IMG/VR virus record: IMGVR_UViG_3300022750_000028
Span: 1-31,234 of that record
Origin: a virus
DNA length: 31,234 bases
Reading direction: 5' to 3' (one strand)
This document shows positions 14,200 to 22,222 of the stretch, piece by piece. Below the pieces are notes generated by a model that saw only the letters and a list, made by a program, of their open reading frames with translations, was not told the origin of the DNA and ran no database searches. The position numbers were made by a program, and so were the translations under genes. Within the stretch, counting starts at the first letter, position 1; each line of letters begins with the position of its first letter.

Positions 14200-14532
14200 T
14201 TATTTTGACTTCTCCGTGATCGCTTCTTTCACCCATTGTATTATTTCTATTTTCAATGATGGGTCTTCTTCTGAGACAATATGGTCGCAGATTGCGAGAA
14301 CTGTATTTTCATCAATGCCGTCTCTAATCAACCCACCGAATGCCTCATCTAAAAAAGATGAGCCGTAGCCAAATGCACCATCCAAAACTACGGTTATAGT
14401 TTCTTTATTTTCATTGGCTTTTATAGCTGGAATCAATACCGTTTTACGAAATTTTTCGCCCGAGTTTGGTCCTAGAGAATCGTATCTAGCCCCAGGAAAC
14501 TCAGAAAAATCTGTTACGAAAATTGTGCTCAT
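14200..14532 (-). CDS. STAS-like protein of the DUF4325 family
   Basis: From the ATG at 14532 (GGAA motifs upstream) the protein has 110 residues and shows the family pattern clearly: FSEFPGARYDSLGPNSGEKF (about 9-28), then a strand ITVVLDGAFGYGSSFLDEAF (about 46-65) and GGLIRDG. DUF4325 resembles STAS domains, which in SpoIIAA-type proteins bind a kinase-like ATPase partner. Its ATG overlaps the stop of the ATPase gene (ATGA), so the two are probably made in equal amounts and act together. No phosphorylated Ser/Thr can be assigned by eye; the Ser pair in GYGSSF is a candidate. Confidence 0.82.
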   Translation of the reverse strand: MSTIFVTDFSEFPGARYDSLGPNSGEKFRKTVLIPAIKANENKETITVVLDGAFGYGSSFLDEAFGGLIRDGIDENTVLAICDHIVSEEDPSLKIEIIQWVKEAITEKSK

Positions 14533-15686
14533 GCTTCCAATTCCTTCAAGGACACTGTCCACTCGATAAGCGTACCACAAATAGAGTGGCTGTAGCTTGC
14601 CGACCATTCTCGCCCGTTCGAACCATCAATCTCAGCGTACCCAGGTCGAATTGTCCCCGGGTACTTCTCGCCAGCTACAATGTAGCATCCGCGATTACTT
14701 CGTATAGACAGTAGCGCTCCTGGAAAGTGCTCTGTAATAGAGCGAATGTCGGCGCCGCCTTTTCCCCTATGAGTTTGATGTGTTCTAGTTCGTTTTATAA
14801 AAGTCGATGCGTGAATCATTTCTGCATCGCTGTTACCTAATATTCTGCATTTTTGAAAGATAGCTCTAAGCATGCTTTCGGGATGTTTTTTTGGCAAAGT
14901 TACCGGTATGCCTACTCCCAGATCACAGACTATAAGTGTGATTTTTTCTTGGTTCCTTCCTACTAGCATCCACCATCTGTTTTCTTTTAGTTGGGCACCG
15001 TTTTCATCGCGAGGATAAGCGTGATCTACACTATTTGCCATTGCCTCGATGGCGCCCTTGTAAAGTTGCGCCTTGGCTTTCTTGGTGATTGATGGTGGCA
15101 AACTATTCAATAGGCTCGCAGCTAAACTACCATCTGCGAGCTCGCCGGATAACTGACTCCATGCTGCAATATCGGCTCTTTTTGTCGGCGTCCGTTCCGG
15201 CTGTCCTATCATTTTAAAGAAACCAATTTGTTGCAGCACACCCTCGATGACTCGATCGTATTGCTTGTATTTGTGTCCAGATCTTCTGCTTGGGATGGAA
15301 CAGCCAAAAGACAGATTTTCATAGGTGGATAATAAATTTGATACGCTCGCCAACAGTCTAAGAGCTGCTGCGGCTGTGATCCGATGAGTATTTCTAAAGC
15401 AGATTATAACACGGTCATTATATCTTGAAGCTTGTTCAAGATTATTCAAGAAGTTGCAAAATGCGCCGAAATTATCTCCTGAATAGATGTCTAATTTGGG
15501 CGGCGCTTGAATTCTAGGCGTAGAGACATGAGAAGTGGCGCCCGGCACGGGAGGCTTAGGGTTCAGGAAAACTTGATTCAAGTCCCCCTGACCACCGGTC
15601 AAACCCTTCGGACGCTTCGCTTGCTCCAACCTACGACGTGCAGCGTTCAGCCTGTGCCGAAGCCTCGATCTGTTAAATTTTTTCAT
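14529..15686 (-). CDS. GHKL (HATPase_c) protein with N-terminal STAS-like region
   Basis: The 385-residue protein has the ATP-binding marks of the GHKL fold. The N-box helix is AIEAMANSVDHAYP (about 212-225), the G1 box is CDLGVGIP (about 254-261), the G2 glycines are in HRGKGGADI (about 306-314), and a final strand is GTLIEW. There is no dimerisation His box, so it is not a normal sensor kinase. It is closer to SpoIIAB/MORC-like switch ATPases. Residues about 92-120 (DRVIICFRNTHRITAAAALR) resemble a STAS strand-helix. First gene of an AT-rich operon with DUF4325 and a membrane protein, between cI and the early left region. No strong ribosome site is visible. Confidence 0.8.
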   Translation of the reverse strand: MKKFNRSRLRHRLNAARRRLEQAKRPKGLTGGQGDLNQVFLNPKPPVPGATSHVSTPRIQAPPKLDIYSGDNFGAFCNFLNNLEQASRYNDRVIICFRNTHRITAAAALRLLASVSNLLSTYENLSFGCSIPSRRSGHKYKQYDRVIEGVLQQIGFFKMIGQPERTPTKRADIAAWSQLSGELADGSLAASLLNSLPPSITKKAKAQLYKGAIEAMANSVDHAYPRDENGAQLKENRWWMLVGRNQEKITLIVCDLGVGIPVTLPKKHPESMLRAIFQKCRILGNSDAEMIHASTFIKRTRTHQTHRGKGGADIRSITEHFPGALLSIRSNRGCYIVAGEKYPGTIRPGYAEIDGSNGREWSASYSHSICGTLIEWTVSLKELEA

Positions 15687-19434: not shown

Positions 19435-19901
19435 GCGACAAGATCAGCGTCAACTGCCACGCGAAGCTCGCCGAAGCCATCACCTGCCTCAACACGATGT
19501 TCCGCGAGAAGAAGTTCGTCGTCGTGTCGCTGCGCCCAGGCAAAGACCGCACGCTCGACCAGAACGCCCTGTGGTTCGCCCTGTACCAGCGTATCGCCCA
19601 GATGACCCAGATCGGCGACGTGGACGATGCTCGCAAGTACTGCAAGCTCCACTTCGGCGTGCAGATCCTGCTGAACGAGGAGGATGAGTTCCGAGTTTCC
19701 TGGTACCGGACCATGCGGCACCTGAGCTACGCCGAAAAGCTGGACCTGATGGGGGGCTGCTCGTTGTTCGGTCCTGACGGATTCCCGGTCACTCGCTTGT
19801 TCAGTCGCGCCCAGGGCATCGCTTACACAGACCGCATCGTTGCCGACTTCACGGAGCGCGGCGTGGTGTTCACGGATCTGTTGAGCGAGGAGGCGGCATG
19901 A
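19431..19901 (+). CDS. NinB-like recombination accessory protein
   Basis: Of 156 residues, KDRTLDQNALWFALYQRIAQ (about 41-60) is the most distinctive stretch: the Asp-Gln-Asn followed by an aromatic helix is what I associate with NinB of lambda, a single-strand-binding recombination mediator. A later FPVTRLFSRAQGIAYTDRIV fits the same family. It overlaps both neighbours by four bases and precedes NinG, the same order as in the lambda nin region. Family assignment is from memory, without alignment. Confidence 0.65.
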   Translation: MSDKISVNCHAKLAEAITCLNTMFREKKFVVVSLRPGKDRTLDQNALWFALYQRIAQMTQIGDVDDARKYCKLHFGVQILLNEEDEFRVSWYRTMRHLSYAEKLDLMGGCSLFGPDGFPVTRLFSRAQGIAYTDRIVADFTERGVVFTDLLSEEAA

Positions 19902-21022
19902 GCATTGAGCGTAAGCAGCCACGTCCCAAGAAATGCCGTGTCGCCGAGTGCAGGGCCTCATTCGTCCCCGCGCGCCTGGGTCAGGCAGTGTGCAGCCCGA
20001 CCTGCGCGATTCTTGATGCGCCAGCGAACCGGGAGAAGGCGCGTAAGGCTATCGATCAGCTCGGTCGCAAGGAAATCAAGGTCCGCAAGGAGAAGCTGAA
20101 GAGCCGGGCCGAGCACCTCAAGGATACGCAGATCGCCTTCAACGCATGGGTGCGTGAGCGTGACGCCGAGCTGCCATGCATCAGCTGCGGCCGGCACCAC
20201 CAGGGCAAGTACGACGCCGGGCACTACCGCACAGTTGGCAGCAACCCAGCGCTGCGCTTCGAGCCGCTGAACTGCCATCGCCAGTGCTCGCCGTGCAACA
20301 CCCAGCTGTCTGGAAACATCGTGAACTACCGCATTGCACTGGTGAAGCGGATCGGCGCGGACGCTGTGGACTGGCTGGAAGGCCCTCATGAGGCAAAGAA
20401 GTACACCGTCGAAGAGTTGAAGGCGATGACCGCCGATTACCGGGCAAAAAACCAGAGAGCTGAAGGGGAGAGCGGCATGACTTATCGCAACGTGGTATCC
20501 GCAGTAGTCCGGGCGCTCGCCGCCGAAACCATCAACTCTGCAGGCGGCTGCGACTTTGAGCCCAAGGTGCAGTGCGACAAGCAGAAGGGGGAGATCGTCG
20601 GTAAGGAGGCAGCGTTCCTCACTGACTGCTGGGTGTTCGGTCGCCTGCACAAGGCGCTGTCTGCGGCGCACTGGCGGGCTTTGGTCGCGAAGTACTCCAC
20701 GCATGACGAGCGCAAGCATGGGGCAATCCTTGAACTGATCAAGACGGCACAGTCGCCGGCGCCGCAACGGTTCCGTGAGTGCGCGGTGCTGACGTGGGCA
20801 ATCCCGCAGGTGGCAGGCGTAGATGGTAAGCGTTCTGCCGCATTGCTCCCGGCAGCGTGGTACGACATCACGAACTGGGACAACGACGGCAAGCCCGAAT
20901 CGACTCGGTACCGGTGGCGTTCGAACATCCGCAAGGCGCTCGACGACCAGGTGAACGAGGCGCTGACGGCTGCTCAGGAACTGCTGGATTCAGAGGGCCT
21001 GATCGAAAGTTGCGCGGCGTAG
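19898..21022 (+). CDS. ninG: NinG recombination protein fused to a Q-like late regulator domain
   Basis: Residues 1-193 read as NinG. There is a cysteine cluster (CRVAECRASF, then CSPTC), a basic helix and an HNH-like zinc site (LPCISCGRHH, then YDAGHYRTVGSN and CHRQCSPCNTQLSGN). Usual NinG length is about 200. Residues 194-374 (MTYRNVVSAVVRALAAETIN, then GEIVGKEAAFLTDCWVFGRL) look like a separate Pseudomonas phage protein normally encoded by its own gene after NinG, probably the antitermination regulator. The junction is exactly at a Met with GGGGAG six bases upstream (ATG 20477), so an 181-residue protein may also be made alone. No stop separates the two parts. Confidence 0.8.
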   Translation: MSIERKQPRPKKCRVAECRASFVPARLGQAVCSPTCAILDAPANREKARKAIDQLGRKEIKVRKEKLKSRAEHLKDTQIAFNAWVRERDAELPCISCGRHHQGKYDAGHYRTVGSNPALRFEPLNCHRQCSPCNTQLSGNIVNYRIALVKRIGADAVDWLEGPHEAKKYTVEELKAMTADYRAKNQRAEGESGMTYRNVVSAVVRALAAETINSAGGCDFEPKVQCDKQKGEIVGKEAAFLTDCWVFGRLHKALSAAHWRALVAKYSTHDERKHGAILELIKTAQSPAPQRFRECAVLTWAIPQVAGVDGKRSAALLPAAWYDITNWDNDGKPESTRYRWRSNIRKALDDQVNEALTAAQELLDSEGLIESCAA

Positions 21023-21032
21023 CAAATAGCCA

Positions 21033-21062
21033 TTGCAACGGGTGAGAGAATGAGAGAATATT
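21033..21062 (+). promoter_or_regulatory. Candidate late promoter
   Basis: TTGCAA (21033-21038), an 18-base spacer and AATATT (21057-21062) lie directly after the Q-like domain. A terminator follows about 35 bases beyond the predicted start. This is the order of lambda PR' and tR', where Q lets polymerase pass. The boxes are only moderate matches. Confidence 0.45.
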
Positions 21063-21101: not shown

Positions 21102-21128
21102 AAAGCCCGGCACGATGTCGGGCTTTTT
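21102..21128 (+). terminator. Intrinsic terminator before the late genes
   Basis: Arms AAAGCCCG (21102-21109) and CGGGCTTT (21119-21126) with a 9-base loop and T run. It would end early right transcription, and would need to be passed for late expression. Confidence 0.85.
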
Positions 21129-21146: not shown

Positions 21147-21410
21147 ATGCGCACTCTTTTAATCCTCGGAATGTTGCTCTCGCCATTGGCGTTCGCTGAT
21201 ATGGTTGAGCCGTCACATTACTGCGACAAGCCAGATGTCCCTTACGAGTTCCAAGATCAGTACGAGCGCGATCAGTTCGAGACTGATGTTGAAGAATATA
21301 AAACCTGCATTACCGATTTCGTAGAAGAGCAGCAGGACGCCATTCGGAAGCACCAGTCAGCGGCCGATGACGCCATTGAAGAGTGGAACGCGTTCGCCCG
21401 CTCGACCTAA
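21147..21410 (+). CDS. Small secreted protein (87 aa)
   Basis: AAGGA lies just before ATG 21147. The N-terminus is a clear signal peptide (MRTLLILGMLLSPLAFA) with probable cleavage after Ala17. The mature part is very acidic and helical (YERDQFETDVEEYKTCITDF) with two cysteines that may pair. It should act in the periplasm. It sits alone between two terminators, as an independent unit ('moron') would. No function known. Confidence 0.7.
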   Translation: MRTLLILGMLLSPLAFADMVEPSHYCDKPDVPYEFQDQYERDQFETDVEEYKTCITDFVEEQQDAIRKHQSAADDAIEEWNAFARST

Positions 21411-21428
21411 TCACCAAACAATTTTCCC

Positions 21429-21455
21429 AAGCCCCGCCACTGAGCGGGGCTTTTT
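21429..21455 (+). terminator. Intrinsic terminator after the secreted protein gene
   Basis: Arms AAGCCCCG (21429-21436) and CGGGGCTT (21445-21452), an 8-base loop and a T run, 18 bases after the stop codon. Confidence 0.88.
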
Positions 21456-21766
21456 CGTTTGCGGTACAGCCAGACCCATTGCTCCGAGCTGGGAGTGCTG
21501 ATAAGGCCGACTCATTCACCGCAGCCAGGGCGGCCTCACCACTGATAAGCCGGCAAGTGCAGTGCTACGACAAAACACCGGCAGCCCGCGTACCTCGTCT
21601 GAACCATGCTTACGGGGTAGCGCGAGACTGGATCTGCGAGATCGATGCATCAGGGCGTCGACGTAGAGAGGGTCTTTGGCTGACAGCGTGGAAAGACCAC
21701 ACATCTTTTCAGGGGCTCGACAATGTGCGTGGGCACCCCACTGATTTTTTGTCGAGCCTAGCCATA
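21456..21766. other. Gene-free stretch with two inverted repeats
   Basis: No convincing gene lies here, although one plus-strand frame stays open by chance from the previous terminator into the next gene. Two inverted repeats follow each other: GGTCTTT/AAAGACC at 21671-21677 and 21692-21698, and GGCTCGACAA/TTGTCGAGCC at 21714-21723 and 21749-21758. A small RNA or a regulatory leader for the gene at 21767 is possible. I do not recognise a known RNA family or tRNA. Confidence 0.4.
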
Positions 21767-22222
21767 ATGTCAGTAATGGAAAAAAACAGGCACTTGGCTA
21801 TCATTCTGTGGATTGAATCTATCTACCCATGGATGAGCGCGATGAGTGATCAAAAAAAGATGCATACGGATATAGATGGGAATGAGCACTTTCAAGCTTC
21901 AGAGGCTGATTGGGCTAACAGAGACATTCGGAGTAGACGCGCCCAAGGAGGGAGTAAGGGAGGGTCAGCAGGCGAAATCATGATTGTAGCCTGCGGGATT
22001 CTGGTTTACTCGTGCTACAAGCTGATGGGTTATATCACTAAGTCTGTGGAAAGTTTTGGGCTTTCTCACGGAGTTTCAGATATCGTCGGGAAGGTTATCG
22101 CAGGTGCTGTTCTGCTTTTTCTTCTCTCCTCCATCTATTTCGCCGGCAGTCCACGCAACCAGTTTGGAATGTGCCTTTTTTATCTGATAATCGCCGTTAC
22201 AGTTATTTTCATCTTCTTCTAG
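21767..22222 (+). CDS. Membrane protein with uncertain start, accessory gene
   Basis: The C-terminal half has three hydrophobic segments: EIMIVACGILVYSCYKLMGY, then VIAGAVLLFLLSSIYFA, and at the end MCLFYLIIAVTVIFIFF. The N-terminal part is polar. No candidate ATG has a good ribosome site. I list 21767 because it follows the 10-bp inverted repeat; 21842 (MSDQKKMH) is equally possible and gives a 127-residue protein. It is AT-rich compared with the phage core and lies between terminators, as an independent insertion would. Family unknown. Confidence 0.5.
   Translation: MSVMEKNRHLAIILWIESIYPWMSAMSDQKKMHTDIDGNEHFQASEADWANRDIRSRRAQGGSKGGSAGEIMIVACGILVYSCYKLMGYITKSVESFGLSHGVSDIVGKVIAGAVLLFLLSSIYFAGSPRNQFGMCLFYLIIAVTVIFIFF

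Follow-up and report, generated by a model that had tools for sequence, protein, structure and literature searches.

The window, as we call the whole analyzed stretch of 31,234 nucleotides (record IMGVR_UViG_3300022750_000028), probably carries the ordinary late-control cassette, NinG followed by Q, of a temperate lambdoid Pseudomonas phage, in which the Q protein would have the fold of AlpA and 21Q, and in which one extra A joins the two reading frames. Its genes include those for an integrase, RecE- and RecT-like proteins, a CI-like repressor, replication, NinB, holins, terminase, portal and head, and its relatives are Pseudomonas phages. The window also contains a 385-aa gene on the minus strand (14529-15686) of phrog_3364, a family of unknown function, and, after the late promoter region, a 279-aa open frame on the plus strand (21383-22222) that has no PHROGs match and may not be a gene.

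The original prediction was based on a single frame of 374 residues, and an open reading frame of 374 codons (19898-21022, plus strand) is indeed present in the record, with a NinG domain and a phrog_3412 domain in one frame. Residues 1-193 (19898-20476, plus strand) belong to phrog_171, and residues 6-189 align to positions 2-191 of the 193-position Pfam NinG profile (PF05766), with E 1.7e-66 and 224.2 bits (curated cut-off 25.4). Judged from these matches, the first half is a complete and ordinary member of the NinG/Rap junction endonucleases, with putative junction nuclease activity; it differs from them by its in-frame joining to the next gene, and its native ending is replaced in the fused frame from a run of A's onward. 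Residues 194-374, henceforth gene 2 (181 aa, 20477-21022, plus strand), match phrog_3412 over positions 1-188 of 188 (E 6.4e-75), a family labeled "unknown function". In the predicted model of the fused protein both folds are kept, a helix formed by residues 171-214 spans the joint, with low confidence at residues 191-195, and the two domains have no fixed arrangement (pTM 0.45).

The cause of the fusion in the record is one extra A upstream of the junction, which moves the frame by one. When the window was aligned with 16 relatives, the extra base was located in a run of six A's (20446-20451, plus strand), from which NinG is shifted into the frame of gene 2. Past the run, the ancestral NinG tail KTRELKGRAA is still readable one frame over, followed by the stop codon TGA at 20478-20480, and this stop overlaps the start of gene 2 in the sequence ATGA (20477-20480, plus strand). 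The fusion had been attributed to loss of the NinG stop, but both the stop and the ancestral tail are retained in the other frame. On the other hand, the prediction that a ribosome site is kept agrees with the sequence: the Met at 20477 is in frame and is preceded, six bases upstream and within the end of NinG, by the Shine-Dalgarno-like GGGGAG (20465-20470, plus strand). Since a Shine-Dalgarno core, by a loose definition, occurs 4-13 nt upstream of gene 2 in all 112 distinct relatives in which the two genes overlap, what had been called an "internal ribosome site" is the normal start signal of gene 2. With this native signal intact, a free 181-aa Q could still be produced beside the fusion.

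To place these features among relatives, 305 loci were collected, besides the window's own, from phage records, viral contigs, genome contigs and Pseudomonas genomes, and pairs were told apart by the 300 nt surrounding the gene 2 start. The loci were sorted into 63 repeats, 92 with NinG only, nine with gene 2 only, and 141 distinct pairs. In 112 of the distinct pairs the genes overlap by exactly ATGA and in 26 they are apart, which bears out the claim that the two halves are usually separate genes; two pairs are odd (L281 and L296) and one is fused (L167). The match falls into two pieces in 44 of 44 phage records with a cover of at least 80%, and ninG and gene 2 are annotated as separate genes in phages psageK9, MR13, Cruim01 and PseuP_222. 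The alignment with relatives that had been proposed for placing the end of NinG gives the ancestral end described above, and a single 374-residue form is not general. In L281, the end of NinG extends over the first 176 nt of gene 2, read in a different frame, perhaps owing to another indel or to a longer NinG. A survey of 184 distinct NinG and 131 distinct second genes detected no frame split within the genes, splits near the ends being of a kind that could be missed, and three matches contained an internal stop (L135, L079 and L003).

The fused state is rare. A pattern search for the window-type NinG tail, irrespective of the next gene, found ordinary spacing in 57 of 58 viral contigs, the contig of L167 being the only one that is one base longer, and in a sister lineage with its own run of six A's all 38 contigs were ordinary. 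No other copy of the window's exact junction was found. The search for other fused copies, made with either half, covered in viral contigs the best 80 loci of 330 and of 296 and in genome contigs 50 loci, and among the matches listed for 398 Pseudomonas genomes, 156 of which had a match, there was no single open frame over both halves. Several apparent candidates were rejected. Of the Pseudomonas genome cases with both matches in one frame, two were inspected: L296 (G115), which is a decayed pair, and L297 (G093), where the genes are apart. In L079 and L080 the long open frame before gene 2 is not NinG, which is truncated there. The decayed pair in L296 (1196-2100) is followed by a still recognisable promoter-like element. 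Upstream of position 3001 in L079 and L080 only the last part of NinG is left, preceded by unrelated sequence, for which a deletion, a chimera or recombination may be suggested. The one second fusion, L167 (IMGVR_UViG_3300014497_000096), has nine A's at the same spot and both genes in one frame of 416 aa, and is one base longer than its relatives at the junction. Because its bases differ from those of the window and the two proteins are 85% identical, the fusion in L167 is taken to be a separate event.

A recent accident or a read error is the best account of the fusion, and the odds that the extra A is a real mutation and not a sequence error are roughly even. That the phage has the usual two overlapping genes and that base-calling or assembly added one base to the A-run is nearly an even bet: a one-base homopolymer change is a classic type of error, the counts given above show how rarely the fused state occurs, and the ancestral NinG tail is perfectly preserved in the other frame. 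Against such an error stands the second contig, L167, with a +1 change at the same place and with different bases. Moreover, none of the window's 17 other annotated genes, which contain eight other runs of six or more, was seen to be split, albeit in a check that was not strict, as several of these genes match only part of their family profile. A real extra base would suggest that joining is tolerated by NinG and Q, or that the internal start is enough.

Two further explanations give the fused product a role of its own. It is very unlikely that the A-run at the end of ninG is a programmed, slippage-prone switch that yields, by one base or in the transcript, either the two proteins separately or a fusion of NinG with Q. 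Such a switch would account for the +1 change having occurred twice at one position (window, six A's; L167, nine), and it has a precedent in TssM1 of Citrobacter rodentium, for which transcriptional slippage on a run of eleven A's, giving two protein forms, is described in the available text (PMC4256274); the frame depends on the length of the A-run in both cases. However, the six A's of the window form a short run compared with the eleven of TssM1, and the run is not conserved: of the 112 overlapping relatives, 68 have at most 2-3 consecutive A's within the final 40 nt of ninG and the other 44 at most 4-6, with no conserved long A-run at the frame junction, and 95 of 96 contigs from the two spacing patterns are ordinary. 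Were there such a switch, late control would be partly carried by a recombination nuclease, and the window and L167 would be two lineages caught in the fused state. The original prediction spoke of the two possible products as linking recombination and late gene control. An established fusion protein with the purpose of such a link would be in keeping with the intact domains and with a fused model that keeps both folds, yet we consider it highly improbable: the model does not fix the arrangement of the domains, the two +1 fusions look separate, each one insertion away from ordinary spacing, no fused lineage was seen, and a literature search found nothing joining NinG, fusion, antiterminator and Q gene. 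With one fusion among 141 distinct pairs plus the window, and with the ordinary state one base away, a selected link between recombination and late control is not supported.

The identity of gene 2 is a separate matter, and here the description of the second half as Q-like was upheld, since the protein is very likely a late-gene switch of the Q/AlpA type. A model of gene 2 built from 18 sequences (pLDDT 77.8, pTM 0.73) gave AlpA, the antiterminator of the P. aeruginosa alp locus, as the first Foldseek hit (E 0.022, probability 1.00, TM 0.51), followed by a hit with E 0.98. In a second structural comparison the six best PDB rows were AlpA (7xya and 7xyb, Z 13.0 and 12.2), the Q protein of phage lambda (7ubn and 7ubm, Z 6.6 and 5.9) and that of phage 21 (6p1b and 6p1c, Z 5.5 and 5.5 over 103-108 residues), and then came sigma chains (5.1, 4.4 and 4.4) and rows of 3.4 or less. 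The AlpA alignment comprises 145 residues spanning model residues 5-174, with 12% identity, and its Z of 13.0 has to be read with the caution that helical models can reach about 13 through a common arrangement without true kinship. Likewise, the score of Q21 (Z 5.5) ties with that of the first sigma chain (5.1). The assignment is made because the six leading rows are all of a single functional class, and the predicted model shares the fold with the C-terminal helix-turn-helix of Q and AlpA.

At the level of sequence, no match of gene 2 to any known Q or AlpA, including those of phages lambda and 21, was found in Pfam or among PDB sequences, where toxin rows at E of about 1 were dismissed as chance. 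A Pfam antiterminator family, such as Phage_antitermQ, was found neither for the window protein at E up to 1 nor among the eight families listed for 23 members of the gene 2 family, and a comparison with NCBIfam gave no match. The fold search against viral models returned mostly uncharacterised proteins, with "Antitermination protein Q" at rank 6 (E 0.58, probability 0.66). By its modeled fold and its putative site gene 2 thus appears to go with the Q/AlpA antiterminators, yet it is without their Pfam family. One relative, in the record of phage PseuP_222, is annotated as an anti-termination regulator, and the available text of the PseuP_222 paper mentions an antitermination protein gene beside that cluster (PMC10305613); as this relative already carries the name, the assignment is not wholly new.

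Other relatives are labeled differently. D3 orf84 (L303, 4027-4605; 43% identical to gene 2) and a "hypothetical protein" of phage MD8 (L302, 3413-4087; 46% identical) are candidate Q proteins, and in MD8 the label "antitermination protein Q" has been placed on a small gene preceding the gene 2 homologue. In phage PS-1 (L004, 3025-3567) a member of the gene 2 family occurs without NinG, after a Lar-like gene, and the usual downstream element is absent. Two loci with NinG only (L139, 3579-4160; L145, 3582-4259) have a phrog_3373 member in the ATGA-overlapping slot after NinG, and in L145 this member has a weak match to phrog_304, anti-termination protein Q-like (E 1.5e-7). From these two checked loci, the slot after NinG may be a Q slot more widely.

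Comparison of the downstream sequences revealed a conserved non-coding element directly after gene 2. In the window it resembles a late promoter (21033-21062, plus strand), with TTGCAA (21033-21038) and AATATT (21057-21062) separated by an 18-bp spacer. The spacer contains a tandem direct repeat, TGAGAG-aa-TGAGAG (21043-21056, plus strand; copies at 21043-21048 and 21051-21056), with a period of 8 bp and the layout of a Q21 site, which we propose as the Q binding element. The conserved start block CATCCTGTC is located where a -10-like pause sequence is expected after the start. A G+C-rich hairpin followed by T's (21103-21128, plus strand) is the proposed terminator that would be read through by Q; the 67-nt stretch with the hairpin folds with -25.8 kcal/mol (z -2.84), and 3 of 200 shuffles were as good. 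A promoter scanner based on a strict consensus and a terminator scanner with a loop limit of 8 called neither element.

With the start block as anchor, 119 of the 141 distinct downstream sequences were caught, and among the 22 unanchored ones inspected by eye, 16 show the element at least partly and six do not (L285, L101, L173, L004, L161 and L166). From the anchored sequences 22 representatives were kept, less than 75% alike position by position, some of which are shifted forms of one subtype. In these representatives the best period-8 repeat scores 5.41 of 6, compared with 2.95 in shuffles (maximum 3.45), and when the ten other periods between 4 and 14 were scored, period 10 alone exceeded its shuffle maximum, and narrowly (3.55 against 3.41). 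A cruder detector fires at period 8 in 133 of 141 sequences compared with 13.5 after shuffling, and also at periods 9, 10 and 12 (29, 74 and 65), probably by way of a repetitive GTGAGA-type subtype. By locus, the repeat was detected in 196 of 206 (136 distinct rows) and not in the remaining 10. The type of repeat pairs with the second helix of the putative helix-turn-helix: TRYRWR occurs with TGAGAG or GTGAG-type repeats, TQERWR with TGAGCC, TRRRWR with TGAGCG, TQYRWK with TGGC-type and TYQRWN with TGTCG, a co-variation that is confounded by common descent and in which single rows may be chance.

The arrangement is like that of known antiterminators. AlpA is described, in the available text, as having its site between -35 and -10 and a terminator downstream (PMC7969949, PMC9371919), and the window has the same layout, with the repeat between the -35- and -10-like sequences and the hairpin with T's behind the promoter; in contrast to the tandem repeat of the window, the complex is described with a single copy of AlpA (PMC9371919). 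The Q21 site in the late promoter is described as two TGAGCA direct repeats with an 8-bp period, whose C residues are at -21 and -13 (PMC6606751); the period is identical to that of the gene 2 loci, where the letters are TGAGAG, TGAGCC or TGAGCG. According to PMC7326022, the gene of lambda Q is placed between the nin genes and the late promoter, as is gene 2. One may ask if gene 2 is instead a DNA-binding promoter activator with a helix-turn-helix like that of sigma region 4, and not an antiterminator. The sigma chains ranked right behind the six best PDB rows (4xlp, Z 5.1; 5wur, 4.4) would fit, and the repeat could serve as an activator site, but the length of the AlpA alignment, the terminator hairpin after the promoter, as for AlpA and Q21, and the position of the site between -35 and -10, as reported in the available texts for both, make an activator unlikely.

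In the preferred reading, gene 2 as an antiterminator, the delayed-early operon would end with ninB, ninG and Q, followed by the late promoter. Gene 2, as a Q-type protein of AlpA/21Q fold, would bind the repeat in the promoter just downstream of its own gene, load on RNA polymerase near this late promoter, and carry the polymerase past the terminator into the lysis and head genes; site binding, loading on polymerase near the promoter and terminator read-through are described for Q21 and AlpA (PMC6606751, PMC7969949, PMC9371919; available text). Normally ninG and Q would overlap by ATGA, and with the extra A in the run NinG would enter the frame of Q, giving a fused product of 374 aa that lacks nothing but the last native residues of NinG, while the native start of Q would give the free 181-aa protein beside it.

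The fusion matters less than the gene 2 family, which offers a route to understanding late gene activation in Pseudomonas phages. The family phrog_3412, which is present in many Pseudomonas prophages and counts D3 orf84 among its relatives, looks like an under-annotated family of Q/AlpA-type antiterminators in Pseudomonas phages, and can be proposed as such in place of "unknown function". As protein and repeat letters differ together by subtype, the family provides natural protein-site pairs for how the Q/AlpA fold reads DNA.
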